Below, piece after piece: positions 6,001-27,383 of a DNA stretch of 64,000 bases (position 1 is its first letter; every line of letters starts with the position of its first letter). Source of the stretch: Phycisphaera sp. (GTDB lineage: Bacteria; Planctomycetota; Phycisphaerae; Phycisphaerales; Zrk34). The translations under genes were made by a program, and so were the position numbers. The notes beneath the pieces were generated by a model, which worked only from the letters and a program-made list of their open reading frames with translations, was not told the DNA's origin and did not search any database. The DNA is taken from contig WGMA01000031.1 of assembly GCA_016125285.1 (NCBI GenBank), positions 1 to 64,000 on the forward strand, in the 5' to 3' direction.

Positions 6001-9000
6001 TACGCTCGTCAATGACGCCGGCGGACGTTTCCAGGTCGATAGCGCGACCGGTGTCGTCACGGTGTTGGACGGCTCGCTGCTCGACTACGAGACCGCGACG
6101 AGCCACAGCGTGACGGTCCGGGCGAGCGATCCGGCCGGTCTCTATCACGACACAACGTTCTCGATCGCGGTTTTGAACGTCGCGCCGTCGTCGCCGGTCG
6201 ATGCGGACGCGGCCGACAATCGTGTGGCCGAAGGCGCGACGGCCGGCACGCCGGTCGGCATCACGGCGAGTGCGACGGATCCCGGCGGCGGCACGCTGAC
6301 GTACACGCTGCCGAACAACGCCGGCGGCCGCTTCCAGATCGACGGCGTGACCGGCGTCATCACCGTCCTCAATGGGTCGCTGCTGAACTTTGAGAGCGCG
6401 TCGAGCCACACCATCGTGGCGCGGGCGGCGGACCCCGCCGGCCTCTATCGTGACGCGACATTTGTCGTGAGCCTGGACAACGTCGCGCCGTCGGCGCCGG
6501 CCGACGTGGACGGCGCGACGAACGCGGTGTACGAAGACGCTTCGTTTGGGACGTCGGTCGGCATCAAGGCTTCGTCGAGCGATCCGTCGGGCGGCACGAT
6601 CACGTACTCGCTGACCGATGACGCGGGCGGTCGCTTCCGGATCAACAGTTCGACCGGCGACGTCTCCGTCGCGAACGGCAGCCTGCTGGATTACGAGTCC
6701 GCCACCACGCACAACATCGTCGTGCGCGCCGCCGATCCAGCGGGATTGTTCAACGAGACGGCGTTCACCGTAGAGGTGCTGAACGTGTCCCCGTCGGCGG
6801 TGACCGATGGTGATTACACGGCCAACTCCGTCGCGGAGGGCGCCGCAACAGGAACACCCGTCGGCGTCACGGCGACATCCAGCGACCCGGCCGGCGGCAC
6901 GATCGTTTACACGCTGGTCGACGACGCGGGCGACCGATTCCAGATCGACGCCGCGACCGGCGTCGTGAGTGTGCTCGATGGATCGCTGTTGGACTTCGAC
7001 ACCGCCACGAGCCACAACGTGACCGTCCGCGCCAGCGATCCCGCGGGCCTGTACCGCGAGGCGACGTTCGCGATCGCCGTGTCAAACGTCGCTCCATCGG
7101 CGCCGGTCGACGCCGAGGCGGATGTGAACAGCGTGCCCGAGGGCGCGGCGAACGGGACGCTGGTGGGGATCACCGCGATGGCCGTCGATCCGTCGGGCGG
7201 CGCCGTCGCCTACAGCCTTTCCAGCAACGCGGGCGGTCGCTTCCAGATCGACCCGACGACCGGTGTCGTGTCGGTGCGCGGCGGCTCGCTGCTCGACTAC
7301 GAGACGGCGACGAGTCACACGATTCGGGTCCGTGCGACCGACACGTCGGGTCTTTACAGCGACGCGATGTTCGTCATCAACATCACGAACATCGCGCCCG
7401 TTGCGGTCGATGACGCGTCCGTCGTCGCTGAGGACCACACCTTGTATGGTGTCTCGGTGCTCGCCAACGACAGCGACGCGCCGTCTGGTTCGCCGCAGAA
7501 GATTCAGGCGTCATTGGTGGGGGACGTGGCACACGGCGCACTTACGCTGGCGTCCAACGGCTCGTTCACCTACACCCCGGACGCCGATTTCAACGGCGTC
7601 GACTCGTTCACCTATCGTGCGGTCGATGCGGGCGGGGCTGCATCAAATCTGGCGACCGTGACGATCACGGTGGGCTCGGTTAATGACGCGCCGGTCGCTG
7701 TGGCCGACGCCTTTGCGATCGACGAGGACCAGACGCTCGCGGGCGTATCGGTGCTGGACAATGATAGCGATGTACACGGCGGGGCGCCGAGCGAAAACAA
7801 CACGCCGCTCGTCGTCTCGTTGATCGACGATGCGACGCGCGGCACGCTGTGGCTCAACGCGGACGGGACGTTCACGTATACCCCCGATGCGGACTTCAAC
7901 GGCGTCGACCGCTTCACGTACCGCGTGACCGACAGTCTCGGCGGCGTGTCCGATGAAGCGGTGGTAACGATCACGATCACCGGCCAAAACGATCCGCCGA
8001 TCGTTGTCGACGACGCGTACGTCGTGCCCGAAGACGGCGCGATCGCCGGGTTGAGCGTGCTGACGAATGACTCGGATCATCACGGCGGCGCGCCCGGTGA
8101 GTCCAACACACCGCTCACCGTGCAACTCGTCAGCGGCCCGAGCCACGGCGTGCTGGTCCTCGATCCGTCGGGCGTGTTCTCCTACACGCCGGATGCCGAC
8201 TTCAACGGCGTGGACTCGTTCACGTATCGTGCGATCGACAGCCTCGGCGCGGCGTCGGACGTGGCGACCGCGACTTTCGCCGTGCTCTCGATCAACGACA
8301 CGCCGGCGCCGGTGGACGACATGTTCGTTACGGACGAAGACACCGCGTTGGTCGGCGACGTGTTCAACGGTGAGAGCGATCTGCACGGCGGGGCGCCGAG
8401 CGAGAACAACCTGCCGCTGACCGCGCAGCTTCTCGCCGGGCCATCGCACGGCGTGTTGACGCTGAACACCGACGGCACGTTTACGTACTCGCCGGATGCG
8501 GACTACAACGGCGCCGATGTGTTTACGTACCGTACCATCGACAGCCTCGGCGGCGCGTCGGCGCCCGCGACGGCGATGGTGCTCGTCAACTCGATCAATG
8601 ACGCGCCGGTCGCGGCGAACGATGCGGCGGCGACCGACGAAGACACTGTCGTGACAGGGAACGTGCTGCTGAATGACACGGACCTCCACGGCGGCGCTCC
8701 GGATGAATCCAACACGCCCCTGTCCGCGCAGCTCGTCAGCGGCCCCGCGCACGGCACGCTGATGCTGAACGCCGACGGCGCGTACACGTACACGCCGGAC
8801 GCGGACTACAACGGTGTTGATGCGTTCACGTACCGCGCCGTCGACAGCCTGGGCGGTGTGTCCGATGCGGCCACGGTCACCGTGACGGTCCGCGCACGCA
8901 ACGACGCGCCGGTGGCGATCGACGATACATTCAGCGTCGATGAGGACACGCCGCTGGTCGGCGCATCGGTCCTGGCCAACGACGCGGACGTCGACTCGCC

Positions 9001-10744
9001 GGCGCTCGCGGCGTCCTTGGTGGACGGCCCTGACCACGGCACACTCCTCTTCCATGGCGACGGCACGTTCGCCTACACGCCGGACACCAACTTCAACGGC
9101 CTCGACACGTTCACGTACACGGTGTCCGACGGCCTGGCGACGAGCAACGTCGCGACGGTGACCGTCCAGGTGAATCCCGTCAACGATGCGCCGATGCTTG
9201 TGCCTGATGTCGTGATCGGCTCGCCCGATGGGCCGACGGTCATCGACGTGCTGGCCAACGATAGTGACCCTGACGGCGAAACGCCGATGATTGTGGACGT
9301 CACGCAGCCCGGAGCGGGCTCGGCGGTCATCAATCCCGACGGCACCATCACCTACACGCCCGGTGTCGGCGTCGCGGGTGTGGATAGGTTCACGTACACG
9401 GTGCGCGACGCGGCGGGCGCCGAGCGGACGTCGACGGTGGACGTTACGACGCCGATCCGCTTCGGCGACGGCATCGCGCGACGAATGATCTTCACCGACA
9501 CCGACGGCACGCGTGTGGTGATGACGCTGTTCGGCGCGGTCGGGCTGGTCACGCCCGGCGAGCCGGGCGTCACCGTTGAGATCCGACGTGGCACGATGTA
9601 CCTGACGCGCGACGGCGGCGTTAGCGTAGACGGGCTGTGGATCGATCCGTCAAGCCGCGACGGGCGTCTGTTGGTGCAGGCACGGGGCGGCGACGGCGTG
9701 CTCAGCATTCACGACGTCAGCATCGGCGATACGTTCGGCGCGGTGATCGCCGCGCAGCTTCGGGTCACGGGCGACATCGATGTCGATGGCGGGCTTGACA
9801 TGCTCGTGCTCGGCGACATCAGCGGCGGCGATCAGCAGATTGTTACGATCGGCGCCGATGCGACGGACCCGCGCGGTTCGCTTGTGTTTCGTGCAGGGAT
9901 CGTGGTCAACGCGTCGGTCTACTCCGACACGCCGCTGGCCCTGTTGCAGGTCACGTCGTGGATCGACACCGGCGACGCGCCCGATGAGATTGTCACGCCG
10001 TGGATCGGGCGGCTGCTGTCCACAGGCAACGGCAGGGCGGGCACGGCGGGCGACTTCGGTGCGGACCTGCGTCTCGTCGGGCCGACCGGAACCCAGCCGG
10101 CGCTGGGCTACGCGATGGTCCGCGGCATCCTGCACGACGCAAGGTGGATGATCGGCGGCGCCGCGACCTCGATTGTCGCGGGCCAGATCGATCGCGTCTC
10201 GTTTGACCTGAACGGGCGGCTGAATCAGATTCGGTCGGGCAACGCCATGGGAGTGGCGATCGACGCCGAGTCGCTGGGCTTGCTTTCGGTTCGCGGCGAC
10301 CTGATCGACGCGACCATCGACGTGCTGACCGACGCTGATCGGGTTCAGGTGACCGGCGAGTTCGGCAACGCGCGATTGAGGGCCGGAGGCGACATCGGCC
10401 TGGCCTACCTCGGCGCGATGCGCAGCGCGGAGGTGTTCGCGGGGGTCAACGCGGCGGTGGGCGGGCTGCCTGACAGCGAGGCGGACTTCAACCTGCTCGA
10501 GCCTGCGGGGATCGGCGCCCTGCGAACGGGGTCGTTCCGAGATTCCAACGTCGCGGCCGCGTCGCTCGGACGGATCGATCTCGGCAGCGTCACCGCAGAC
10601 AACTCGGGCTCACCGTTCGGCGTTGCGACGCAGTCCTTCGGCCAGATCACCTATCGTGACGGAACGACCGGCGTCCGGCTCCGGAACCCGCTCGAGGTGG
10701 AAACGACGCGATTCGACGAAGACTTCATCGTGCGGATCTTTTGA
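2..10744 (+). CDS. Giant secreted repeat protein (FG-GAP, GEVED, cadherin-like, tandem-95), 5' truncated by window edge
   Basis: The frame is open to the first base, so the N-terminus lies outside the window; the GTG at 32 falls inside a repeat and is not the start. Over 3,570 residues are visible. Order by nucleotide: four FG-GAP/VCBS blades with DxDGDGDLD calcium-type loops (2-560), a GEVED domain beginning DLGDAPSS and ending GEVEDY (about 570-1030), seven more FG-GAP blades (about 1090-2055), a Gly/Asp/Thr-rich beta-helix-like stretch resembling haemagglutinin or autotransporter-associated repeats (about 2070-4150), a second GEVED domain (about 4157-4650), nine cadherin-like repeats (4673-7396), seven tandem-95/Big-type repeats (7397-9451) and a unique C-terminal region (9452-10744). 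The likely role is a surface or secreted adhesin or matrix protein; this is inferred from domain content. No LPXTG, PEP-CTERM or RTX sorting signal is visible at the C-terminus. Confidence 0.9.
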   Translation, partial: QELGDYQTLFVAAGDVNGDGYIDFVEANGDNKNNRVYLNDGTGAFTQTGQKLTKIRTTSVALGDVDGDGDLDLIEATVSGTNLRLNDGSGNFTASVTSLSSRETYAVVLADIDGDGDLDLIEGHYQEDNPAPNHILLNDGSGNFADYLQFGFTGQTHALAAGDVDGDGDLDIFEGSYYGIPNKLWLNAFVDLGDAPSSFGTTLLNDGARHGDSSLTLGASVDLEIDGQPSAGADGDGSDDDGVTFGALRVGQTDATVTVNVQGGSGKLDAWIDFNGDGTFQDGAEHVIFSTAVSVGDNDVTFDIPGWALPGSTYARFRLSSVGGIGPIGSILDGEVEDYVVTLAAPTGSSGALVDSGQTFDTNDGTLGTAFADLDGDGDLDVITGSPGAIRVYFNDGAGHFTDSMQLLVSENTYAIAAGDLDGDGDIDFVAGNDGQKSRIYFNDGTGYFTTSTTLFNVDDTVEVLLPDIDGDGDLDYMVINHGGSSWVYFNDGSGGYNNRVYVGFGSGETRGAAVGDVDNDGDLDIIEARDGGFANAVLLNDGLSNFSSSASLSTDLTRDVALGDVNGDGFLDLIEATVNGLVLRLNDGTGDFSTGSTSLDSNATYTAVLVDIDGDGDLDIVEGNYSAANRVLFNDGSGSFTDSGQTLGTSATFALAVGDVDGDGDIDVFEGAYGQPNTLWLNVLTTEYDWNGVDTLTILMSADAVVSVDEAAGTVRFTSSNGFLPIGTVAPTIGAGYIEFAAADIATSLVFNNDNVSFATSEASLNGVSFDSGTVTSGTITITLANSVGDTDADDIVFNGGAISSGGAVTISTELGDVTSPGAATTDITASSLAITATSGVGVTDAIQTAVGNFEASTDTGGVFVDNTGDLTLGGVDATLTGVDTITSGDIIVTAVGYVVLDEDSAAAAGGGVSFIATDYVRINSTLITAGGDIVLNSDSDEDLAGWIRVQAAVTSNGGDITLGGGADPLTTPAWGGPGQTDGINFTASGSLSSDSGDISLRGHGRNGTNNLAQGLNLNGDIVTTSGNVSLWGQGGDSASTNNGEGVLLDSGATVRSDTGDIDVTGFGGGGARSNHYGVNLQDKSTIQVGAGDLTISATGGSNDSPGFRLSPASSGKLISTGSGSITVTGIGNGGEPGILIGDNQTIVGGSLATGDITFITDDFNAGGATIQSTGNLYVIPYTASTSIGIGGGSGSLNISDGEINLFQDGFASITIGDTAGGTGTVNINTATFRDPVTIAGGTILDAASGTDVSAPSITLIGDVAPGVLVVSGDLTLDDDDTLSIEIGGTTPGSASTDYDQVAVAGGVTIGANVALNLSAKSPFVPTGGETYTILDNDGVDPIVGTFSGLAEGAYILSFLGTNMVAQITYQGGSGNDVVLTAFGVDFGDAPSPYETTAAEDGARHLDAGPMLGANRDSELDGTHSTDADYDDLNGATPDDEDGVVFGILPFTTGSSRTGTVAIDLESPDGAGNYLDAWIDFNNDGDWDDAGEHIFAAYDLGTSAGVQTLSFTIPAGVAAGDRYARFRVSTTGGLLSTGLALDGEVEDHLAVFENVAPPAPVDVDATANSITESATIGTLVGITASSIDLNGDTITYSLADDAGGRFQIDGLTGVVTVSNAGLLDYETSSSHDITVRASDGALYSDSIFTIAVTNVSPSTPVDRDATSNGVVEGAATGTPVGVTAYSIDPSGPAVMYSLTDDAGGRFQVDGATGVVTVLDGTLLDYETATSHDITVQASDGAGGTSTQTFTIAVDNVAPSTPIDADASANAIAEGAAMGTPVGVTASSMDPNGPAVMYTLTDDAGGRFQIDGATGVVTVLDGSLIDFDAEDSHDIVVRASDPAGLYDEMSFTIAVTNVAPSTPTDTNGAVNAVSEGSPNGVSVGLTASSSDPSGGTINYTLVDDAGGRFKINRSTGVVSVARGTLIDFETATSHVITVRATDGGGLFSEASFVIDVLNVAPSAPNDANSTANRVVEGAASGTSVGLTASSSDPSGGPIVFTLVNDAGGRFQVDSATGVVTVLDGSLLDYETATSHSVTVRASDPAGLYHDTTFSIAVLNVAPSSPVDADAADNRVAEGATAGTPVGITASATDPGGGTLTYTLPNNAGGRFQIDGVTGVITVLNGSLLNFESASSHTIVARAADPAGLYRDATFVVSLDNVAPSAPADVDGATNAVYEDASFGTSVGIKASSSDPSGGTITYSLTDDAGGRFRINSSTGDVSVANGSLLDYESATTHNIVVRAADPAGLFNETAFTVEVLNVSPSAVTDGDYTANSVAEGAATGTPVGVTATSSDPAGGTIVYTLVDDAGDRFQIDAATGVVSVLDGSLLDFDTATSHNVTVRASDPAGLYREATFAIAVSNVAPSAPVDAEADVNSVPEGAANGTLVGITAMAVDPSGGAVAYSLSSNAGGRFQIDPTTGVVSVRGGSLLDYETATSHTIRVRATDTSGLYSDAMFVINITNIAPVAVDDASVVAEDHTLYGVSVLANDSDAPSGSPQKIQASLVGDVAHGALTLASNGSFTYTPDADFNGVDSFTYRAVDAGGAASNLATVTITVGSVNDAPVAVADAFAIDEDQTLAGVSVLDNDSDVHGGAPSENNTPLVVSLIDDATRGTLWLNADGTFTYTPDADFNGVDRFTYRVTDSLGGVSDEAVVTITITGQNDPPIVVDDAYVVPEDGAIAGLSVLTNDSDHHGGAPGESNTPLTVQLVSGPSHGVLVLDPSGVFSYTPDADFNGVDSFTYRAIDSLGAASDVATATFAVLSINDTPAPVDDMFVTDEDTALVGDVFNGESDLHGGAPSENNLPLTAQLLAGPSHGVLTLNTDGTFTYSPDADYNGADVFTYRTIDSLGGASAPATAMVLVNSINDAPVAANDAAATDEDTVVTGNVLLNDTDLHGGAPDESNTPLSAQLVSGPAHGTLMLNADGAYTYTPDADYNGVDAFTYRAVDSLGGVSDAATVTVTVRARNDAPVAIDDTFSVDEDTPLVGASVLANDADVDSPALAASLVDGPDHGTLLFHGDGTFAYTPDTNFNGLDTFTYTVSDGLATSNVATVTVQVNPVNDAPMLVPDVVIGSPDGPTVIDVLANDSDPDGETPMIVDVTQPGAGSAVINPDGTITYTPGVGVAGVDRFTYTVRDAAGAERTSTVDVTTPIRFGDGIARRMIFTDTDGTRVVMTLFGAVGLVTPGEPGVTVEIRRGTMYLTRDGGVSVDGLWIDPSSRDGRLLVQARGGDGVLSIHDVSIGDTFGAVIAAQLRVTGDIDVDGGLDMLVLGDISGGDQQIVTIGADATDPRGSLVFRAGIVVNASVYSDTPLALLQVTSWIDTGDAPDEIVTPWIGRLLSTGNGRAGTAGDFGADLRLVGPTGTQPALGYAMVRGILHDARWMIGGAATSIVAGQIDRVSFDLNGRLNQIRSGNAMGVAIDAESLGLLSVRGDLIDATIDVLTDADRVQVTGEFGNARLRAGGDIGLAYLGAMRSAEVFAGVNAAVGGLPDSEADFNLLEPAGIGALRTGSFRDSNVAAASLGRIDLGSVTADNSGSPFGVATQSFGQITYRDGTTGVRLRNPLEVETTRFDEDFIVRIF
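4673..7396 (+). repeat. Nine tandem cadherin-like repeats of about 303 bp
   Basis: Nine consecutive units of 100-102 codons lie inside the giant protein gene. Each starts near P-S-x-P-x-D, carries E-G-x-x-x-G-T-x-V-G and DDAGGRFQID-TGVVTV cores, and ends in x-V-x-N-V-A/S. The units are close to identical in length and very similar in sequence, as expected of a coding tandem array that expands and contracts by recombination. Confidence 0.9.
7397..9451 (+). repeat. Seven tandem-95 / Big-type repeats
   Basis: Seven units of about 85-103 codons follow the cadherin-like array. Each begins with V-x-D-D-x-x-x-x-x-E-D, has a V-L-x-N-D-x-D turn and a YTPDADFNGVDSFTYR-like strand, and ends in N-D-A-P. 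The last unit lacks the E-D motif and is more divergent. Four of the seven carry an added H-G-G-A-P-x-E-x-N loop, which marks them as recent copies of one another. Confidence 0.88.
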
Positions 10745-13800: not shown

Positions 13801-16144
13801 GGCGCAGCAGCTTGAGCCCCTCAAAGCTGGCGAACCAGTCGGCCTTCGATACCGACGCGCCGGCCTTCGGCGCGTCGCCGCCGGAGACGAGCTGGTCGAG
13901 GCCGAACCCGCTGTCCTCCTTCTTCTTCGCGGCCGACGTGGCGAGCAGGTCGTCGATCAGGTTCTCCTCGCCCGTGTCGGCCTTGCGCCGCACGCGGATG
14001 CGTAACGCCCGCGTGCGCGTGTCAGGCGGCATCGGCACGCACGTCCAGCTTCCCGGGCGCGGCTTCTGCGGCGCGGGTTGCCACTGTGACTCGTCGTTCG
14101 GGTTCGGCGGGTACTTCGCGCCGGTCTTGTGCACGGCCAGGTCGACGACGTACTCCGGGCCGAGGTTCGGCAGCACGACGCTGCCTAGCGGGATCGCCTC
14201 CTTGAACGCGAGCAGGATGTACTGCTGTTTGGCGGTGCCGACGGTGTCGAGCGTGATGGGGAACTGCGTTTCGCGGTGGCCCGGCCGCACGTCGTTCTGT
14301 CCGGCGGGCGCGCCGGTGAGGCGCAGCAGGCGGAGGAAGTCGACGCGCGGCATCGGCTCGACGGTCTGGTTGCCGGTGGGGTTGGGGATCTTCGCGGGGA
14401 ACCACGGCAGGCAGTGTTCGAGGTCGACGACGTCGGCGCGGGTCGCGTTGTCGAGCCACGGTTCGGCGGCGTTCCACGACATGGCGATCACGCCGTCGTG
14501 CGCCGTAATGCCGACCAGCCTGCCCTGACGCTCGGGTCCGGTCAGTGTCGCGATGCGCTCGATCTGGTGCGTCTGGGGATCGAGGCGGTGCAGCGCGTCG
14601 TTCTCCTGGATGTAGAGGAAGCGTCCGTCACCGGCGAGTTGGCCGACGCCGCTAAACGCGCGAAAGCCGTGCTTGCCCCACAGTTTCTTGCCGCTCAGGT
14701 CGCACTCGATCAGGCCCACGCCGCTCTCGACGCCGGGCGCGCCGAAGTACACGCGGTCGCCGCTCGCCGCGCCGGTGTGGATCGACGAGTGATCCGCGAG
14801 CCAGCCGTTCGGCCCCGACTCCCCGGTCAGCCACGGCGTCCGATCGGAAAAGAACTGCGGCGCGTTGGGGTACACCGCCGTCTGATACTTCAGCCCGATC
14901 TGCGGCGACGCGATCGCCTTCCATCGATATCGCCCTGCGGGCACGACCTGGCCCGTCTCGTCCTTCAGGTCCCAATACTCGACGGTCGGCCCACGCTTGC
15001 GATCCACCTGCGCCACGAGGTTGCGCACGTGACGCCCGGCCTCGTCGGTCACCACGACCGCCAACTGCCCGTCGAACGGTTGCTCGAACGCGATCGCCTT
15101 ACCGGGCGGCGCCTGCGCCGTCGCATCGACGGTCGCGGCGGGGGAGCTGGTGAACGCGTCCATACGATCCACCACGGCGATCGGGCTGCGCTGACACGCG
15201 GTCATCTCAACCTTGATCGCGATCGTCTTCAGGGCGTCGAACGCGAGCAGCCGATCGTGCAGCCGATCGCGGTCACGCAGCTGCTCATGCAGCACGCGCG
15301 GCTCAATCCGTCGCCACGCCTTCTTCGGCGCGACCGCCGGATTCAGGTCCGACTCGCCGCGGTAGACGTACACGGCGTACGTGTCGGCGTTGCAGCTGAG
15401 CCACATTGCGTCGATCGTCTGCGGCGCGTCCCACGACAGGATGTACCACGACGGTAGCACGTCGCTCACCGCGGCGCGCGGCACATGCTTGGGCGAGTTC
15501 GGGCGGGGGTCGCGACCGGTGTTGGTCCACGATTCACCCATCGGGATGGCGTTGGGGCGCGAGCCGAACGGCGCCTTCTCACCGCTGCCGACGGCCACGG
15601 GCGTGAGGTTCGTCAGCCGCTGCTTCCACGCCAGCCAGCTCCACTCGCCACGGAAGTTGCGGTTTACAACAAGCCGCACCGCACGCGTCGTGAAACCCGC
15701 GGGGAACACCTCGACGCTCGCGATGTCGCGCCAGTCCGCGTCGGCGGCCTGGCTGACGGCGTCGTCGAAGTCCGACCGCAGCGTCTGCACGACGATGCGT
15801 CCGCCGTCGGTGTAGCCCGAGCCGAACGCCGCGGTCCCGATCACGACCGGCTCCTTGAACGCCAGCACGACCTGCGACCCGGCCGACAGCGTGTCACTGC
15901 GGCTCGCGGCCTTTTCGGTGATCGCGGCGAAGTGGGCGTTGAACGTCGCCTCATCGATCGGCGAGCGCTTGTCGGGTGAGATCACGGCGGAGTTCGCACC
16001 GTCGACCAGCGCGAACGTGAACGCGGGTGTCGTCGGCTCGTCGGCTCGCGCGGCGGGCGTATTGGTCGCGCCCGCGACGAGCGCGACCAGCACAAGGAAT
16101 AGCCGCGCGTGAATCTGCATACGCGTCTGGAACAAAGGTCGCAT
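10805..16144 (-). CDS. Very large secreted beta-propeller protein with FlgD-type Ig domain and CBM9/DOMON-like C-terminus (paralogue A)
   Basis: Protein of 1,779 residues. I chose the ATG at 16144 because GGAG lies 6 nt upstream and a signal peptide follows (MRPLFQTRMQIHARLFLVLVA through ATNTPAARA). An in-frame ATG at 16183 would overlap the end of the preceding gene and has no such support. Visible parts: an N-terminal discoidin-like region, a FlgD-type Ig segment (about 345-420, ending GRYRWKAI), a long mid-region with NHL/PQQ-like propeller repeats, and a C-terminal beta-sandwich (about 1540-1779) with V-L-I-G-V-D-P and R-L-L-F-T-F motifs resembling CBM9/DOMON-like domains. The whole matches the upstream neighbour in domain order, so the two are paralogues in one operon. 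Function unknown; binding of sugar or haem at the C-terminus is only a family-based guess. Confidence 0.85.
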   Translation of the reverse strand: MRPLFQTRMQIHARLFLVLVALVAGATNTPAARADEPTTPAFTFALVDGANSAVISPDKRSPIDEATFNAHFAAITEKAASRSDTLSAGSQVVLAFKEPVVIGTAAFGSGYTDGGRIVVQTLRSDFDDAVSQAADADWRDIASVEVFPAGFTTRAVRLVVNRNFRGEWSWLAWKQRLTNLTPVAVGSGEKAPFGSRPNAIPMGESWTNTGRDPRPNSPKHVPRAAVSDVLPSWYILSWDAPQTIDAMWLSCNADTYAVYVYRGESDLNPAVAPKKAWRRIEPRVLHEQLRDRDRLHDRLLAFDALKTIAIKVEMTACQRSPIAVVDRMDAFTSSPAATVDATAQAPPGKAIAFEQPFDGQLAVVVTDEAGRHVRNLVAQVDRKRGPTVEYWDLKDETGQVVPAGRYRWKAIASPQIGLKYQTAVYPNAPQFFSDRTPWLTGESGPNGWLADHSSIHTGAASGDRVYFGAPGVESGVGLIECDLSGKKLWGKHGFRAFSGVGQLAGDGRFLYIQENDALHRLDPQTHQIERIATLTGPERQGRLVGITAHDGVIAMSWNAAEPWLDNATRADVVDLEHCLPWFPAKIPNPTGNQTVEPMPRVDFLRLLRLTGAPAGQNDVRPGHRETQFPITLDTVGTAKQQYILLAFKEAIPLGSVVLPNLGPEYVVDLAVHKTGAKYPPNPNDESQWQPAPQKPRPGSWTCVPMPPDTRTRALRIRVRRKADTGEENLIDDLLATSAAKKKEDSGFGLDQLVSGGDAPKAGASVSKADWFASFEGLKLLRRRFADLTPKAKVRVSSGEINAAGEWDAKRTKPVSTEDPGVYLLEWPEAVGLAGLAIKEIDGAVTEIDVWDDQAAGGAGRDVTLTDAPGWRNVATYKQVRRDGYFPAFTRADWARYMDGYVSFDGQIKTRAVRLRVTEQWLDSNERGTATMRHDRGGRTLDRRRCSVYGVAALGYLGQEPSLDPLVYHRVELRDGASGKVVREFTAKDTAGGVAESPASLCYGPDGALYGIQHHRVVRIDTNTGATQPELPPIDGHDVTAHRMTVGPDGAFYVYVLPDKNVRVFGRDGSPLRTIGRPGGQKPGPWDAEKFDQVAELVVDAKRQLWVVESQNVPRRIVQYDADGQFVHEFYGNTSYGGGGVLDPHDKSRLFYNQVEFAIDWDTGVSRVKNMLAEWLPTDCVPIAHGGRTYLVESPLSYSSTQELTRIYLYEAEHGTAKPVAAFGEADKFNELKSPGVLIMMDPVKTPKDYTFIWADRNGDARVDAEEVTLEAKAPGAQRVHIGRMNEKMRCWAGTRLYAPTSIQPNGVPIYEATRADRSGSYELNDGSLLSLSVQADDAYETVEGTDRENHVVDAKGHALWRYGTSHPSVSGLYLPPWAPGYVTNEFGVIGHEVASAGDLGEFVVVHANNGMWKIWTADGLLAGQITRHKFDPRSIVDSSRPTVARGQSFDNLTAGQEHFHGYFVKAPDGRYYIVHGHNYIGLWEVTGIDDFKRMSGDMDVTPDDLRTVRARQAELARREVKSQAKTLECLPMKTGGDIPVVAEIDGVEFGIGYDKDSLAVRWTVSSPNGLLRNSGDDFHRYFKTGACLDVLIGVDPAAPANRTAPIAGDMRLLFTFAEGKPQAVLYQPVASGADAKTAWETHTPAGGTTRFDRVVRLTGATLNYAPDRDNTRYTFIAIIPLRELNWQPLPGQLLRFDWGVLTSDDGHTVKRRTYWSNMLATGTSDEALEARLEPQLWGTLVVAESSKAERQLDRSLDGPKKPKAGADILDDLLEKSNNK

Positions 16145-16179
16145 AAAGGACTCCGAATACGAATGCCACGCATGCGCGT

Positions 16180-19100
16180 TCACTTGGATGACTCAAACTG
16201 CACGGCGCCCCACAGGTTCGGGTGCAGCATGATCTCGCCGGGGATATCGTCGACGAGCATCGTCGCGCGGTTCGCCCAGTAGGACCGCAGTTGCGTGTCG
16301 GTGCCCTCGGCGTTGCCGAACGTCACGCCGAAGTCGGTGCGGAGCGGTTTGCTCGACGGCTTGAGCCCGATGGCGGCGAGCGGGATCTTCGCGTCGACGA
16401 CGTAGCCCTGGTTGTTTGTCTTGACCTGGATCGCCGCGCCGGTCAGACGCTCGACGTTGTCGACCGTCTCGCCGCGCCAGGGCGACGTGAACTGGATCGG
16501 GTTCTTGGCGTTGGGCTTGCGGTGCTGATACAGCACGGCGATCGGCTGGCCCTCGAACGGCGCGATCAACAGACGCTGATCACCTTCGACGGGCCCGCGG
16601 CGCTTCGCGTCGGCGTCGGGGTTTACGCCGATCTGGATGTCGACGGTGTCGCCCGTCGCGAACAGCGTCGTCCAGTCGCGGCCGTTGTTGATCCACGGTG
16701 ACGGGTCTTGGACTTGGTACGTGAGGTGCAGGTTGTCGCCTTCCACCGCGGCGTCCAGCACGACCTTGAACCGGCCGCTCTGATCCCACGCCAGCTCCCC
16801 GGGCAGCCGCAGCGTCTTGGCGGGCTGTTTGTCGGCGATACGGCGCAGCTTGCTTCGCTCAGCCGCGGCGATCTGCTCGTTGGTCACGCGGATCGATCCG
16901 TCCATGCGTTTGGCCTGGTCGATGCCGTGCAGTTCATAGATGCGGTAGGGGCCGTGGCCGATCTGCACGTAGTACCTGCCGTCGGTCGCGGACCGCTCAA
17001 ACATCCCGCCGAAGATCTCGCCGCCGAGCCGGTACTCGTTCATCAGGTAGCTGACGCGCACGTCGGTGAACGCCTCGTCGAGGTAGAGCCCGTCCGACGT
17101 CAGCATGAAGCAGCGACCGTGATTGCCGTTGAGGAAGAACACGTCGGCCTTGTCGTCGAACGGCGCCATGCCGATGATCGCCATCGTGCCCTGCATCACG
17201 CCCGTCTCCGGAAGCGGCGCGTCGTGCGAGCCGTGCACGTCGCTCCAATGGTTCGGGTAGGTCCACACACGCTTGCCGTGCGCGTCGTACGCGTTCATCT
17301 CCGGCGAGGAGTTGAAGATGAACCGCCCGAACCGGTCGCGCGCCGTCGACACGCCCTCACGTTTGTAGCCCTCGGTCAGATCGATGTCCGTCGCGTTGTT
17401 GTTTACGGCGTCCTGCAGCGACGGGTAGTCCGGGATGCCGTTGGCGAGAAATCCCTTCGGCTTGATCTCGACGATCTTGACCTGCTTGCCCACGGCGACG
17501 GGGAAGCGCAGCGTCAGCGAGTCCTGCCGGTGTCCCCACGCGCCGTCGGCGAACTTCACGCCCTCGTCGGTGAACGTGAACTCGTCCTTCTGCGGCTGGC
17601 CGTCACCGTTGCGATCGACCCACAGCACGCCGCCGACGCGACCGGCCCACGGCTTGCCCTCGCCGCCGCGCCCGGCCTTCTCATCCTTGCGCTTCTCGGG
17701 CCACTTCTCGTAGAACGCGTCGATGTACGCCTGGGGCGGGTCCCACTCGCAGCCGTACGCGAAGTGATGCGTGCCGCACGCCGCGGCGATCTCTCGGATC
17801 GAACCGTCGTCGAACACCTCGCAGATCAGCGCGATCTTGCCGCGGGCGCACAGGAATGTGCGACCGGCCTCGCGGAACACCGAGTAGCCCTGCGGGTAAT
17901 AGTGCTCGAAGTGGGCGTCGCTCAGCGCCATGACGTGCGTCGGTCGGGCCGTGCCTTTGTCGATATCGATGTCCCAGAAGCACCCGAGGCCGATCCAGCG
18001 ACGCGGGTTCTGCGGATCGAAGCCCGAGCCGTCGCCGCCGTAGTGGGGGATGCCGAACTTCTCGTACACGACCGTCTTCTTACTGAGGTCCCACGCCATC
18101 ACGCGCTTCGGATTCCAACGCTTCTCGGTGACCCACAGCTTGCCGTTCGGGCCGATCGCCAGCCCCGCGGGGTTGACCATGCGGTCGGCGTCGTAGCGTC
18201 CCTTGTACGGCCCGCCGGGCTTGCCGATCGTCTCGACGTGCTTGCCGTCGGCGGTGAAGTGCTGTACCTGGTGCGACGCGTCGTCGCTGACGTAGAGGTC
18301 GCCGTTAGGCGCGACGGTGATACCCGCCAGGTCCATGCCGTTGGCGTCGACGATCCGCTTGCCGTCTTTGACGCGCACCACGCCGTCGTCGGTCGCCGCG
18401 TAAATCACGTCGTTCAGCGACGCGAGATGACGCACGCCCCGCAGCGCGATCTTGTCGAGTTGCTTGCCCGTCGCCGCGTCGAACACGAGCACGGCGTTTT
18501 TGCCGCGCGAACCGACGTAGAGCTTGCCCTCGCTCACCGCAAGACCGCCGAGGTTGTAGCTGTGCAGGTCGGGGTGCGCCGAACCCGGGCCGACCTCCAT
18601 GACGTCGGCCTCGAACGCGCGGAGCTTGCCGGGAAACTCGACGACCTTGCCGGTATTCAGATCGTACCGCGCCACGGTCAGCGTCCAGTGCGACTTCCAG
18701 TCGTCGCGCTTCCAATCGATGTCCCTCGAGCCGCCCCAGCCGAAGCCGTCCTGCGCGCAGTAGAGGTACTTGTCGTCGACGGCGATCGCGTTGTGGCCGA
18801 TGCCGAATCCCTGCTGGTGCTCGTAGCCCTGCACGAAGTTGCCTTCGGGGTCGAGCGCGAGCAGCGCCCAGCCGCCCTCGGTGACGGGCGCGGCGAAGTA
18901 GATGTGCTTGCTGTCGGCGACCGCGTCTTGCAGCAGGCCGTGATTCGGGCCCCACGGACGCGCGTTGATCGGCTCGCGGCCCCCGGCGAACGACATGCGG
19001 AAGTCGGGCTTGATGCCCGGGTGCGTCACGCCTCGCCAGTGGTAGTCGCCGGGCGGCACGAGTTGGCCGTTCTCGTCGAAGCCGTCCCAGACGACCGTGT

Positions 19101-21332: not shown

Positions 21333-22901
21333 CTACGGGTTCGCCCACAGCAACGTGGGCTGACCGCGCCGCATCTCGGCCTGGATCTCCGCTTCGCTCA
21401 AGGCGCGATCCCAGATCGCGACCTCGTCGATCCGGCCGTTGAACGACCGAACCGGGGCGTACTGTCCGATGGCGAGCCAGTTGCCGATGCGGCAAACGCC
21501 CGGTCGGATGCGGCTGTCCTTTTTCAGTGAACACGCGTAGGCTCGCTCGCCGTTGACATAGACCACCGTCTTGCCGGTGACGAGCGAGAACGTCGCGACC
21601 AGGTGCGCCCATTCGCTCATCGGCACGACGGGCTTCCAGTGCTGCTGATCGCGATCCCGTGCGTCGAAGAGGTCGGTGTAGGGCGCGCCGCGGCGTTGGA
21701 TCTGCACGTGGAGGTCGCCGCTGTCCCAGCCGTTCGAGTCGAACACGGCGTTGAGCGGGTTGTCCAGCCGATTCACCATCACCCACGCCGCAATCGTCAG
21801 CTCCTGGTAATCGCCGTCGACGTTCAGTTCGGCGTAGTCTTCCGGGCCGTCGAACAGCAGCGCGTCCTTGCCGTGCCACCGCCCCGATCCCCAGCGTGCG
21901 CCGTGGATCGTCGCGTCGGACACCGTGTGGGACCCGCTTGTCTGCAGGTTGCGGAGCAGCGTCGGCTGGTCCTTGTCGCGTTCGAAGGAGAACATCGCGA
22001 TCAGGCCGGGGTCGCTCAGACGCTTGTCGCGCTCGGAGAGCCAGCGTCGAAACCCGATGCCGTCTGGCATGGGAAACGCTTCGGGCCTGACGGTTTCAGA
22101 CTCGCTCGGCTTCCCGTCCCTGTACTCGAACGCCTGGCCGCCCTGGACGCTGCGGATCAGGTCGTTGGACTTCGGACTCCGCACGTTCACCTGCCCGTCG
22201 AACACGAGCAGCGACTCCATGTCGGTGTCGCGATCGACGCGGAGGCCGAACTCGGTGCCGACGTCCTCGAACTTCGCGCTGCGTGTCTCGACCGTGAAGC
22301 CCTTTGCGGTGGGGGGCACGATGGCGCGGACGCTGCCGTACTCGAGGCGGGTGTGCAGCGGGTCGACCAGCTCGAACCGCGCGGGGCTCTCGACGACGAG
22401 GTCGGCGCTGTTGTTGAAACGCAGGTGGATCGTGCCCGACCGCAGTTCGTACGTCCCGCGTGTGAAGCCGTCGTCGCTGGCGGCGCGTGGCGTGGCGAAC
22501 TGAGCGTCCACCTGATTGACGACCATCGCCAACGCGTTGCTAGGCCGGTGTGGCTTGTCGGCGCCCGACGGAGGCGCCACGTCGCTGCCCGGGCGCGGCC
22601 ACAGCACGAACGCGATGCACGCCGCGGCGACCAGCCACGGTACGCTCCGCCGCGCTATCGCCACCGCCTGCCGCCGCTTGTGATGTTCAAACGAAAACGC
22701 ATCCGTCGGCTCGCGGTGCGCTTCGGTTAGCGCCGTCTCGAATCCGGCCAGTTCCACGAAGCGCCGCTGCGCCCACTCCGAGCCGTCGAGCAGCTCCGCG
22801 AGTTCCATCTTCTCTTCGGCGGAAAGCTCGCCGCGCAGCTGTCGCTCGACCAGCTGCGACAGCCGCTCTTCGTCGGGATGTGACACGGTGGGGGCGTTCA
22901 T
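21333..22901 (-). CDS. FecR-domain membrane protein with C-terminal LamG/concanavalin-like domain (putative anti-sigma partner)
   Basis: Protein of 522 residues. The ATG at 22901 overlaps the stop of the sigma factor gene (ATGA), implying translational coupling. Residues 1-70 form a cytoplasmic helical region of anti-sigma-like composition ([17 protein letters not shown]). Residues about 86-102 are a single membrane segment ([16 protein letters not shown]). Residues 150-260 match the FecR fold, with [18 protein letters not shown] and VFDGQVNV. Residues 300-520 are a LamG-like jelly roll ([27 protein letters not shown]). In the known FecR logic, a periplasmic signal is passed to an ECF sigma factor. 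Here the LamG domain could be the sensor for a glycan; that step is inference. Confidence 0.88.
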
Positions 22902-23431
22902 GCCGAGGGCTCCCGTGTCATGCGCAGGCGGACGCAATCGCCGAGTTGCTGCTTGGTGCGGAACAGACGCTTTCGGACCGTCTCGAGCGTGATGCTCAGG
23001 GCCTTGCCGATCTCGGGATACGCGGCGTTCTCTTCGTAGCGCAGGCGGATGATCTCGCGGCCGTTCTGAGGCAGCCGCGACAGGCACTCGCGCAGGCAGT
23101 CGACCCGGTAGGGCGTGTCCTCATCGGACTGATGCTTCGCGAACGCCGCGTCCATCGCGTCCTGTAGCACGCGGTCCTCGACGGGCAGTTCGCGGCGGTT
23201 CTTGCGGATGTAGCTGAGCACCTGCAGACGCACGATCGTGCGACACCACGCCAGCATCGACGTGCCTTCCTCGAAGTCCTCATACTTGCGGGCGACGACG
23301 ACAAACGTATTCTGCACAACGTCTTGCGCGGCGGGATAGTCCGACAGCATCGCGTACGCGTAAGCCGTCAACGCCGACTGATGCGCCAGCGCCGCCTTGA
23401 GAATCCGGTCTCGGGACTCGTGATCGTTCAT
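22898..23431 (-). CDS. ECF RNA polymerase sigma factor (Rhodopirellula/Verrucomicrobium type)
   Basis: Protein of 177 residues with sigma-70 region 2 at about 13-80 (ALTAYAYAMLSDYPAAQDVV, then WCRTIVRLQVLSYIRKNRR) and region 4 at about 110-165 (LSRLPQNGREIIRLRYEEN, then TLETVRKRLFRTKQQL). The order and spacing match the ECF subfamily that is abundant in Planctomycetes and Verrucomicrobia. I chose the ATG at 23431 rather than an upstream in-frame ATG at 23503, because the extra residues would read through the intergenic inverted repeat and are not sigma-like. It is the first gene of the operon with FecR/LamG and the two propeller proteins. The inverted repeat at 23461-23507 sits 30 nt upstream and may regulate it. 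Confidence 0.92.
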   Translation of the reverse strand: MNDHESRDRILKAALAHQSALTAYAYAMLSDYPAAQDVVQNTFVVVARKYEDFEEGTSMLAWCRTIVRLQVLSYIRKNRRELPVEDRVLQDAMDAAFAKHQSDEDTPYRVDCLRECLSRLPQNGREIIRLRYEENAAYPEIGKALSITLETVRKRLFRTKQQLGDCVRLRMTREPSA

Positions 23432-23460
23432 GGCTACTACTTGAATATCACGTCGGGCGT

Positions 23461-23507
23461 GATCGTGGACAAGAAAAATCTGTTTCGAAGGTTTTCTGTC
23501 CACGATC
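23461..23507. promoter_or_regulatory. Strong inverted repeat in the divergent intergenic gap
   Basis: Arms GATCGTGGACA (23461-23471) and TGTCCACGATC (23497-23507) are perfectly complementary. Pairing continues for five more base pairs (GAAAA with TTTTC) after a single bulged A at 23472, enclosing a loop of about 14 nt. It lies between the divergent sigma factor and DUF1592-type cytochrome genes, 30 bp and 72 bp from the two chosen starts. It could be a dyad operator for a repressor shared by both operons, or a hairpin in one of the leaders. It is not a classical terminator for either neighbour because it precedes both genes. Confidence 0.6.
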
Positions 23508-23578
23508 CGCTACGCCGCGGCATTCATGTTGTGGGTAACCATGAGTCGAATCCGAGTCAATCACACATGATGAGCGAC

Positions 23579-26002
23579 ATGAAGTTCCATCGAGCCGCCC
23601 TCGTCCTGTTCTGCCTGGCCGTGTCGGCGTCCGCGGCGTCGGGCGCTGCGCCTTCGTTCGAGAAGGATATCCAGCCGTTCCTCGACGCGTACTGCGTCAA
23701 GTGTCACAACGAGACGAAGCACAAGGGCGACCTGCGGTTCGACACGCTGTCGAAGGACGTCGGTGCTGACGACGCGCCGCACTGGGCGGAGGTGATGGAG
23801 CGGATCAGCTCGGGCGAGATGCCGCCGGAGGAGCAGCGGAAGCGACCGACCGCCGAGCAGGGCGCCGCGGTCGTGGACTGGCTGTCCGCACGCATCCACG
23901 AGGGCGAGGCGAAGCGGCTGGCCAAGCGCGACCGCGTGACCTACAACCGCCTGACGCGTGACGAGTACGTCAACACCGTCCGCGACCTGATCGGCGTGCA
24001 GTACGACGCGTCGGACCCCGGCGGGCTGCTGGAGGACGCCGAGTGGCACGGCTTCGAGCGCCTCGGCTCGGTGCTCACGCTCTCGCCGTCGCACATCGAC
24101 AAGTACATGACCGCCGCGGAGGTGGTGCTGAACGAGGCGTACCCCGACAAGCCGATCGAATACGCCGAGGCGACGAAGCCGGCCGAGACGGTCGACCCGA
24201 AATACCAGCCGGAACACTACGCGCGCCTCAAGGAAGCCGGGCTGCTCGACAAGGTGCGGTTCGAGATGTGGCCGGGCGATCTGTTTCGCGGAGGCAACGC
24301 GTACAACCACGTGAAGTTTCCCGGCCCGGGCGTCTACGAGATCACGGTCAAGCTCAGCGGCCTGAAGCCTCCGAACGGTCCGGCGCCGCGTCTGCACGTG
24401 TACGAGGCGAACCTGGACCGCGTGCTGTTCGAGCAGGACGTGATCGCGCCGGAGGATCAGCCGACGACCGTGACGTTTCGCGCGCACTTCCCCAGCGATC
24501 GTGGGCCTAACATTCAGCTGATCAACATGGTGCCGGAGATCAGCCTCAACTTCACGCACCGTTCGGCACGTCACGGCCGAAAGCCGTTCGTCAGCATCGC
24601 CGATGGACGCATGCCGTGGCAGATGAAGCTTACCGACGAGCAGGGCCAGCCGCGGTATCCGTTCCTGATCATCGACTCGACTTCGATGCGCGGCCCGATC
24701 GTCACGGAGCAGGAGCAGCAACGCCGCGACGAATACATGCCGAAGGACACGGAGAACATGGATCAGGTTCGCGCCGGCCTGGCCGCGATGGCGAAGCGCG
24801 CCTTTCGGCGTCCGCTCTACAACGGCGAGCTGGACGTGTACGTCGGCATCGTCGACAGTGAACTCGCCGCCGGGGAAAAATTCCGCGACGCGGTCAAGTC
24901 GGCGATGACGGCGATCCTCTGCTCCAAGAGCTTTCTGTTCATCGCGGAGGGCGACGAGAACGTCAACCGCAACACGCTCAACGACTGGGAGATCGCTACG
25001 CGTCTGTCTTACCTGCTGTGGAGCACGATGCCGGACGACGAGCTGTTCAAGCTCGCCGAGCAGGGCAAGCTGCACGACAAGGCCGAGCTGGAGCGTCAGC
25101 TCGACCGCATGCTCGCCGACCCGCGCGCCGAGCGGTTCGCCGTGTCGTTCCCTACGCAGTGGCTTCGCCTGCGTAAGGTCGGCATGTTTCCGCCCGACAA
25201 GAAGCTCTACCCGAACTACGATTCGCACCTCGAGCAGAGCATGATCGGCGAGACCACCGCGTTCTTCGGCGAGGTGCTCAGAAGCAACCTGACGCTCCGC
25301 GAGTTCCTCGACTCCGACTGGACGATGGTCAATCCCCGGCTTGCCAAGTTCTACGGCATCCCGAACATCACGAGGGACGAGTTCCAACGCGTGAAGCTCG
25401 ATCCCGAGTGCCACCGCGGGGGGATCCTGACGCAGGCGGCGATCCTTTCGCTGACGTCGGACGGCACCCGTCAGCGTCCGGTGCACCGCGGGGCGTGGGT
25501 TTCCGAGGCGATCTTCGGCAAGACGCCGCCGCCACCACCGGCCAACGTCGCGCCCATCGAGCCCACGCCCGTCGGCCAGCCCAAGGCGACGCTGCGGATG
25601 AAGCTCGACGCACACAAGACCAACCCGACCTGCGCGGCGTGCCATCGCAAGATCGACCCGCTCGGTCTGGCGTTCGACAACTACAACGCGATCGGCGCAT
25701 GGCGGACGCACGAACGGGTTGAAGGCGCCGGAGACGACCCGGTCGTCGACGCCAGCGGTGAGCTGCCCGACGGGCGCACGTTCAAGAACGCCGAGGAGTT
25801 CAAGCAGCTGCTGCTAGACGACATCGACGCGTTCAACAAAACGTTCGTCGAGAAGCTGGCGACCTACGGGATGCGCCGCACTGTGACTTTTGATGACCGC
25901 GAGGGCCTGAAGGCGATCGCGAAGTTCAGCCGCGACAACGACTACCGCGTCCGCGACATCGTGCGGGCGTTCGTGTTATCCGATCTGTTCCAGAAACGCT
26001 AA
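23579..26002 (+). CDS. Secreted c-type cytochrome of the DUF1587/DUF1595/DUF1592/DUF1588/DUF1585 architecture
   Basis: Protein of 807 residues. ATG 23579 gives a clean signal peptide ([20 protein letters not shown]); ATGs at 23567 and 23570 would add only 3-4 residues. A haem c site CVKCH is at 39-43, after which the domains run in the usual order: DUF1587 ([19 protein letters not shown]), DUF1595, DUF1592 ([15 protein letters not shown]), DUF1588 ([20 protein letters not shown]) and DUF1585 (C-terminus ending [15 protein letters not shown]). A second CxxCH (CAACH) is near 685. These proteins are common in Planctomycetes and have no established activity. It is followed by a DUF1552 gene, its usual partner, and diverges from an ECF sigma operon that may control it. 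Confidence 0.9.
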
Positions 26003-26018
26003 CGCAGGGGCACCCGTG

Positions 26019-27383
26019 ATGAACATCCCACGAAAGACCTGGCAGATGAGCCGCCGACACGTGCTGCGTGGACTGGGCGTGTCGATCGCGCTGCCGATGC
26101 TCGACTGCATGGCCGCGGCGGACCTGCCGAAGCCGACGCCGCCGAAACGCAGCGTGTTCCTGTACATCCCCAACGGCGTCAATACGCTGACGTGGCAGAT
26201 CGAGCAGGCGGGTGCCGACTACGTGTTCACCTCGCCGCTGGCGTCGCTCGAGCGTCACCGCGCCGAGCTGTCGCCGATCAGCGGCCTGCACCACCCGATG
26301 GTGCTCGGCAAGAATCACCAGTGCGATAAGGTTTGGCTGACCGGCGCCGACGTCCCGGCCAACGGCGGGGCGTTCCGCAACACGGTCTCCGCTGACCAGC
26401 TGATGGCCGAGGTGCAGGGCAAGGTGACGCGGTTCCCTTCGCTTGAGCTGGCGGTGGAAGGGCACTCGCTGGCGTGGTCGCGCGACGGGATCCAGATCCC
26501 CGCGGAGCGCAACGTCAAGTCGATCTTCGATCGGCTGTTCGGCGACGACCGCGGCGGCAAGGACGTCGTCCGCCGCCGGCTGAACCGCCGCGGCAGCATT
26601 CTCGACGCGGTACTCACCGACGCCCGGCGCGTCAACGGCAAGCTCGGCGCCGCCGACCGCAACAAGCTCGACGAGTACCTCACGGCGGTGCGGCAGGTTG
26701 AGGTGCAGACCGAGCGCGCCGACGCCTGGCTGGACGTGCCCAAGCCGAAGATCCCGCCGGAGGAAGCCGCACACTTCTCGCGGAAGCTCGACATGTCACG
26801 CGTGCGGGAGTACCACCGCACGTTCTACGACCTGATGGTGCTCGCGCTCCGCACCGACATGACGCGCGTCATCACGTGCATGATCTGCAGTGAATCCAAC
26901 GGCGGCGCGATCCCGGACATCGGCATCTCGCAGACCCGTCACGCGCTGTCGCACCACAACGGCGACCCGGAACAGCTGCGTCGCCTCACGGAGACCGACA
27001 CGTTCCTCGTCGAGCAGTTCAGCTACTTCCTCGATCAGCTCAAGACCCACCAGGACCATGACAGCTGCCTGCTCGACACGACGCAGGTTCTCTGGGGCAG
27101 CGGCATGGCGTACGGCCACAGCCACGGCAACGCCAACCTGCCCACGCTTTACGCCGGCGGCAAGGCGCTGGGCGTGAAGCATGGCCAGCACGTCGACTTC
27201 AACCTGCCGAAGATCGGCCACTACAACGTCGCGGTCCCCAACGAGCACTACAAGATCTGCGGACGCCCGGTCGACGAGAAGGCGCGCCTGAGCAACCTGC
27301 TGCTGACGATGCTGCAGCGCGTCGACGTCGAGGCCGAACAGTTCCAGGACAGCGTCGGCACGATCTCGCAGGTCGTGGCGTAG
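26019..27383 (+). CDS. Tat-exported DUF1552 protein
   Basis: Protein of 454 residues. The ATG at 26019 directly follows an in-frame GTG (26016); AGGGG lies 8 nt upstream. The N-terminus has a twin-arginine signal ([19 protein letters not shown]), so it is probably folded before export. The rest matches DUF1552: the early FLYIPNGVN strand, [11 protein letters not shown], then [20 protein letters not shown], and a C-terminal [15 protein letters not shown] stretch that recalls the alkaline-phosphatase-like fold of the related DUF1501 proteins. It starts 16 nt after the cytochrome gene. Known families place DUF1552 beside DUF1592-type cytochromes; what the pair does is not established. Confidence 0.9.

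Follow-up and report, generated by a model that had tools for sequence, protein, structure and literature searches.

When an inverted repeat with long arms lies in the short gap between two divergent operons, one of them headed by an ECF-type sigma factor gene, is it an operator common to both, a hairpin in the sigma mRNA, or something else? We addressed this question for one such repeat in a 64-kb stretch of DNA (hereafter the window), taken from a genome of 6.1 Mb in a 90-contig assembly (97% complete) that probably belongs to Planctomycetota, judging by its protein families and by the record titles of relatives. Motifs, gaps and start codons were obtained with our own scripts, and gene starts with a gene caller based on codon scores. 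On the minus strand, the sigma gene (22898..23431) encodes a 177-aa protein with regions 2 and 4, for which the nearest NCBIfam model is TIGR02989, at a score under its cut-off; downstream of it lies a gene (21333..22901, minus strand) whose LamG-like product also matches FecR, at a score just below Pfam's cut-off. On the plus strand, a planctomycete cytochrome protein gene (23567..26002; PSCyt1, PSD3, PSD5, PSD4, PSCyt3 and PSD2 domains) is followed in the same direction by a gene for an HXXSHH (DUF1552) protein (26016..27383; gene caller's start at 26019). The best-supported sigma start is the ATG at 23431, and a candidate N-terminal extension through the stem from a GTG at 23503 was disfavoured, with the 24 extra codons scoring -2.2 and the next 24 scoring +2.5. 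The first-pass annotation had placed the repeat in a gap of 148 bp, 30 nt ahead of the sigma start, and both distances were close: the gap spans 135 bp to the cytochrome ATG at 23567 (147 bp if the ATG at 23579 is taken as the start), and the lower arm lies 29 nt from the sigma ATG.

The core dyad (23461..23507, no strand) was likewise present as first described, with perfect complementarity between the 11-bp arms GATCGTGGACA (23461-23471) and TGTCCACGATC (23497-23507), and five further pairs (GAAAA/TTTTC) inside the arms, past one unpaired A at 23472. Folded as RNA, it reached a z-score of -4.3 on the plus strand and -4.5 on the minus strand, none of 200 shuffles being equally stable on either strand; folded as DNA, it reached -4.3. 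The predicted minimum-energy fold of the minus strand exceeds this core and forms an extended imperfect dyad of 35 pairs (23439..23529, no strand; z -4.5) that leaves the sigma ATG unpaired. A 9-nt direct repeat, CGTGATCGT, which could be due to chance, occurs in the first sigma codons (23419-23427) and again at 23458-23466, overlapping the lower arm.

To assess how unusual such a dyad is, we counted perfect inverted repeats of at least 11 bp with loops of up to 40 nt in the window and found 7, against 2-5 in each of 8 Markov resamples, so that the perfect arm by itself is a modest excess over chance. We then scored hairpins in 185 control leaders drawn from 20 stretches of 20 kb and the window (183 without the window's own two). 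A z-score below -3 was reached by 13 of the 183 and a z-score below -4 by 9. Hairpins at z<-3 occurred in 8/64 leaders of sigma-factor genes versus 15/185 controls (Mann-Whitney p = 0.2 for the distributions as a whole; each set includes leaders of the window itself). A general hairpin feature of sigma-gene leaders, hinted at by a scan of 75 leaders, was dropped after this comparison. Because strong dyads reach this level in 13/183 controls without an excess in sigma-gene leaders, they are a background feature of the genome and no mark of sigma genes. Such dyads are accordingly not rare in this genome. Searching 24 divergent gaps beside sigma genes for inverted repeats returned mostly short palindromes and was uninformative. 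Other gaps of the same genome carry very strong dyads without a T run, such as the leaders of 7222-9720 (L189), 4352-4708 (L199) and 15966-17351 (L197) and the gap between 3644 and 3786 (L195), and the intergenic words CCAATGACCAATG and TTGGTCATTGG recur in L190, L197 and L198, possibly as a dispersed repeat family.

Reading the two arms outward gave a different view of the locus. Both sides carry TGTCCACGATC-N14-ATTCA in the same register, and in the 6.1 Mb this composite occurs without mismatch at two sites only, one per arm. Weaker matches numbered 74, and 27 of the 28 for which we examined the locus fall inside genes; in keeping with this, the excess of forward matches (76, against 8 for the reversed pattern) was taken to reflect coding sequence. 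The likeness is confined to blocks: identity between the two sides is 5/14 over the 14 nt separating them, and the outer flanks are alike again (ATTCA, then GT, GT; P = 0.0019 for that register, register -4 scoring equally high).

On the sigma side (minus strand), TGTCCACGATC (23461..23471) contains TGTCCA at 23466-23471 as a proposed -35-like box, and a putative -10-like box, TATTCA (23442..23447), follows 18 nt past it and ends 10 nt before the ATG. On the cytochrome side (plus strand), an identical TGTCCACGATC (23497..23507) is followed at the same 18-nt spacing by CATTCA (23521..23526), the corresponding candidate -10-like box. Upstream of these boxes, the sigma side has a T-tract in the inner stem and loop (CAGATTTTTC, 23473..23482, minus strand), and the cytochrome side has GAAGGTTTTC (23487..23496, plus strand), at best a weak copy of it. 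A standard scan of the gap for sigma-70-type promoters found none, and a loose scan reached at most 8/12 (TTGTCC-N17-GATATT), overlapping the same sigma-side boxes.

To compare these boxes with the leaders of other sigma-factor genes, we searched the genome for sigma-70 region 2 and obtained 76 matches, with contigs C55, C32, C12, C15 and C29 rich in them; two relatives, G007 and G008, had 122 and 115 matches. Discarding one truncated match (C15:145-228) left 75, of which 72 had a 130-nt leader; in 64 of these the gap measured 90 nt or more, and leaving out the window locus gives 63. We refer to these as sigma-gene leaders, with the qualification that a few members, such as L179 (348 codons), have long frames that make an ECF identity improbable, and that the leaders L116/L153 and L152/L184 share one gap each and are hence not independent.

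Expectation-maximisation on the 63 leaders, with the window locus held out, yielded the motif aA.ATTTTTC, located 41-90 nt before the start in 38 of the 48 leaders scoring above 6. Its core TTTTTC was present in 16/63 sigma-gene leaders versus 8/183 controls (p = 9e-6) in the forward direction, and in 5/63 and 3/183 respectively on the reverse strand. A second block, aTGT..aGAt, mostly follows the T-tract at a distance of a few nt, and TAT/TAG words cluster about 30-45 nt further on. The held-out sigma-side T-tract scored 13.3 at 41 nt before the ATG, a value reached by none of the 183 controls and by 7/63 sigma-gene leaders. When a second box, 6, 8 or 10 nt wide, was added to the T-tract, the sigma side was equalled by 0, 2 and 0 of 183 controls; the learned width-6 box is not TGT-like, and the width-10 box corresponds to TTGTCCACGA, with 14/63 sigma-gene leaders scoring as high. 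On the cytochrome side, GAAGGTTTTC scored 7.2 (matched by 23/183 controls), the top T-tract score of the leader, 8.2, fell outside the arm (AATCTGTTTC, 23477-23486; 11/183 controls as high), and the combined scores were equalled by 34, 7 and 11 of 183 controls for the three widths. Since the learned element is undistinctive there, the case for a cytochrome promoter leans on identity with the sigma side.

The spacing of the boxes was examined in the same sets. The gap from T-tract to TGTCCA is 0-1 nt on both window sides, and in 44 other leaders, 11 of 19 TGT..A occurrences lie 5-9 nt past the T-tract. A [T/C]AT box stands 18 nt past TGTnnA on both window sides (the class spacing of 17-19 nt being partly derived from the window), and the pattern TGT..A-N18-[TC]AT occurred in 6/63 other sigma-gene leaders in the forward direction, in none in reverse and in 0/183 controls. 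A loose sigma-70-type two-box pattern showed the opposite trend, being found in 30/183 control leaders forward and 17 reverse (7.6 expected), versus 6/63 sigma-gene leaders forward and 3 reverse (4.1 expected).

For comparison in another genus of the same family, we took from G008 40 sigma-gene leaders out of the 115 matches, in listing order and skipping long frames and loci already in use, together with 150 controls from stretches that may include sigma genes. The combined element separated the 40 leaders from the 150 controls with p = 4e-7, 1e-9 and 3e-12 for widths 6, 8 and 10, and a spacing of 17-19 nt occurred in 8/40 leaders versus 3/150 controls. The exact N18 spacing was not enriched there (1/40 versus 1/150), nor was TTTTTC (4/40 versus 11/150). 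The sigma-70-type two-box pattern was present in 32/150 controls forward (5 reverse) and in 2/40 sigma-gene leaders (3 reverse). In total, 9 + 9 patterns were tried on the leaders of the window's genome and 8 in the comparison with G008, in addition to the three second-box widths. All these p-values are exploratory, as the choice of patterns was guided by inspecting the same leaders; the window locus was held out, however, and the G008 leaders were fetched afterwards.

Taken together, we favour, with a probability of roughly 0.45, the reading that the dyad consists of two near-identical outward-facing promoters placed back to back. The first would drive transcription of the ECF sigma gene with its LamG/FecR-like partner, and the second that of the divergent cytochrome (PSCyt1/DUF1592)-DUF1552 operon. 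In both, TGTCCACGATC would supply a TGTCCA -35-like box, followed 18 nt outward by a -10-like box, [T/C]ATTCA; the upstream T-tract is clear on the sigma side and only weak on the cytochrome side, and the two promoters would share the short A/T-rich centre. A single holoenzyme could then read both promoters, so that both operons would respond together, and the hairpin potential would be a by-product of the mirror arrangement. If the promoter reading holds, both transcription starts would fall outside the stem. With 10 nt between the end of the sigma-side -10-like box and the ATG, the sigma mRNA would have almost no leader and would leave out the stem; the cytochrome mRNA, its start expected near 23533, would lack the stem as well.

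A wider generalisation, which we regard as tentative and somewhat doubtful, is that a single promoter class (T-tract, TGTnnA, about 18 nt, yAT), absent from ordinary genes, is common to dozens of sigma-factor genes across this planctomycete family, and that the window holds this class mirrored back to back, placing a private cytochrome operon and the sigma gene under the same holoenzyme and leaving the dyad as a by-product.

Which sigma factor would read the pair was approached through the recognition helix, LETVRKRLFRTKQQL, the columns of which were chosen by residue number rather than from a structure. Its identity to the helices of three full-protein factors with TGTCCA leaders was 0.27, 0.27 and 0.18, within the 0.14-0.41 range of the other 30 full proteins. 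As the helix is no closer to the former than to the latter, plain autoregulation becomes less likely: positive autoregulation, in which the sigma factor reads its own promoter, is possible but unsupported by this comparison, and control of the pair by another sigma factor is possible.

The perfect 11-bp arms within a 135-bp divergent gap would also suit an operator, on which a dimeric or multimeric DNA-binding protein bound to the two GATCGTGGACA arms controls both operons, and the likeness of the arms exceeds what a -35 box alone requires. We nevertheless consider an operator unlikely. A distance of 36 bp from one arm centre to the other, with 25 nt separating the arms, would be long for one dimer, and the sigma side is already explained by an element common to other sigma-factor genes. 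At up to one mismatch, the arm pattern GTGGACANGAAAA has 19 sites in the genome, of which the window site alone has a perfect 7-nt partner no more than 60 nt away; the same count spoke against a mobile or repeated element, as did a search with a 91-base query, which matched elsewhere over stretches of 14-22 bases only. A neutral or relic inverted repeat without a present role, left by an old insertion end or an inverted duplication, would agree with the frequency of intergenic dyads in this genome (the 13/183 leaders above) and with a gene order seen nowhere else in the genomes searched. It is in our opinion quite unlikely, since the genome holds no other copy and the arm identity is confined to two blocks at the promoter-like boxes, separated by a dissimilar stretch. 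No second copy of the stem was found in the 6.1 Mb, and a 14-mer adjoining the stem, which does recur, was located within long coding frames at all 11 loci checked.

A structured RNA in the leader of the sigma mRNA, acting by attenuation, stability or start-site control, could draw on the stability of the fold, which no shuffle equalled on either strand. Stable hairpins are not in excess in sigma-gene leaders (8/64 versus 15/185 at z<-3), however, the predicted fold leaves the ATG free of pairing, and the promoter-like boxes between stem and ATG would put the transcription starts outside the stem. Rfam 15 covariance models gave no match up to an E-value of 5 in 22800-24200, which also set aside a known structured RNA. 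We thus judge an RNA leader decidedly improbable. An intrinsic terminator was rejected as well, with no terminator-like site in 23300-23700 (in a scan of loops of 3-8 nt) and no T run after the stem on either strand. The regulatory role first proposed for the dyad accordingly divides: a control element common to both operons is supported by the arms and by the sigma-side match, whereas a hairpin in the sigma leader is not favoured.

To find the same arrangement elsewhere, we searched for relatives of both proteins. For the sigma factor, the family (8 other genomes) gave no match at E<=1e-25. With up to 8 candidates scored per genome, the order (399 other genomes) gave none at E<=1e-28; at E<=1e-30, on the same basis, 392 genomes of the phylum (the window's own included) yielded one other genome, at 41% identity. 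The two sigma relatives in G044 have neither TGTCCA nor TGGACA in the upstream 330 nt. Relatives of the cytochrome protein were found in 313 stretches, and we kept the best 80. None of these 80 has a divergent sigma gene beside the cytochrome gene (72 of them with more than 900 nt upstream), and none has TGGACA-N5-60-TGTCCA within 300 nt before the cytochrome match. The neighbours also differ, by inspection of translated frames, for a 65%-identity cytochrome relative in G442 and for two paralogues in the same genome. The divergent gene order of the window was found nowhere else among the genomes and loci searched. In two of the 80 loci, L212 and L226, a sigma gene does lie upstream, at a distance of about 1.7 kb, but it points the same way as the cytochrome gene, in contrast to the window. 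Six contigs (L224, L225, L238, L244, L249 and L261) are titled Klebsiella pneumoniae or Akkermansia muciniphila and carry cytochrome genes of planctomycete/verrucomicrobial type at 61-66% identity; they are possibly mislabelled metagenome bins.

This lineage is very rich in sigma factors, and the promoter pair, if true, would give one of them a concrete target in the divergent cytochrome operon. The common leader element would provide a sequence handle on how sigma genes themselves are switched on. The locus also calls for caution, as mirrored promoters, rather than an RNA structure, can underlie a long dyad in a divergent gap. Among the literature titles and abstract openings listed, from a collection missing most subscription journals, none describes a promoter motif for planctomycete ECF genes, which is weak evidence of absence. 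A 2021 review describes the N-terminally extended ECFs of Planctomycetes as experimentally unstudied (PMC8103513).

Among known systems, the closest parallel in layout is ECF41, with promoters of the form TGTCACA-n16-CGTC, a bipartite motif that can precede the sigma gene as well as the target gene, and with divergent orientation in less than 20% of sigma/target pairs (PMC3426412). The window resembles this system in its TGTC-type -35, in a -10 about 16 nt on and in a motif ahead of both sigma gene and putative target. It differs in having TGTCCAC on both sides in place of TGTCACA, ATATTCA and GCATTCA in place of CGTC at a spacing of 16 +/- 1, and other targets; in its sigma factor, of 177 aa, regions 2 and 4 were the only ones found, whereas ECF41 factors have a C-terminal extension. 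Autoregulated ECF genes offer a second parallel: the same review cites a regulon-prediction study in which about 55% of ECFs are autoregulated (PMC8103513). The window is alike in that the sigma gene and the adjacent operon share a promoter-like sequence, and unlike in that the comparison of recognition helices gave autoregulation no support. By protein family, the sigma factor comes nearest to TIGR02989 (Sig-70_gvs1, the Rhodopirellula/Verrucomicrobium family), its best NCBIfam match, which it covers over nearly the whole model at 116.6 bits while missing the curated cut-off of 124.55 bits. Set beside these systems, the arrangement is ordinary in kind, and the candidate promoter class is the more useful by-product of the analysis.
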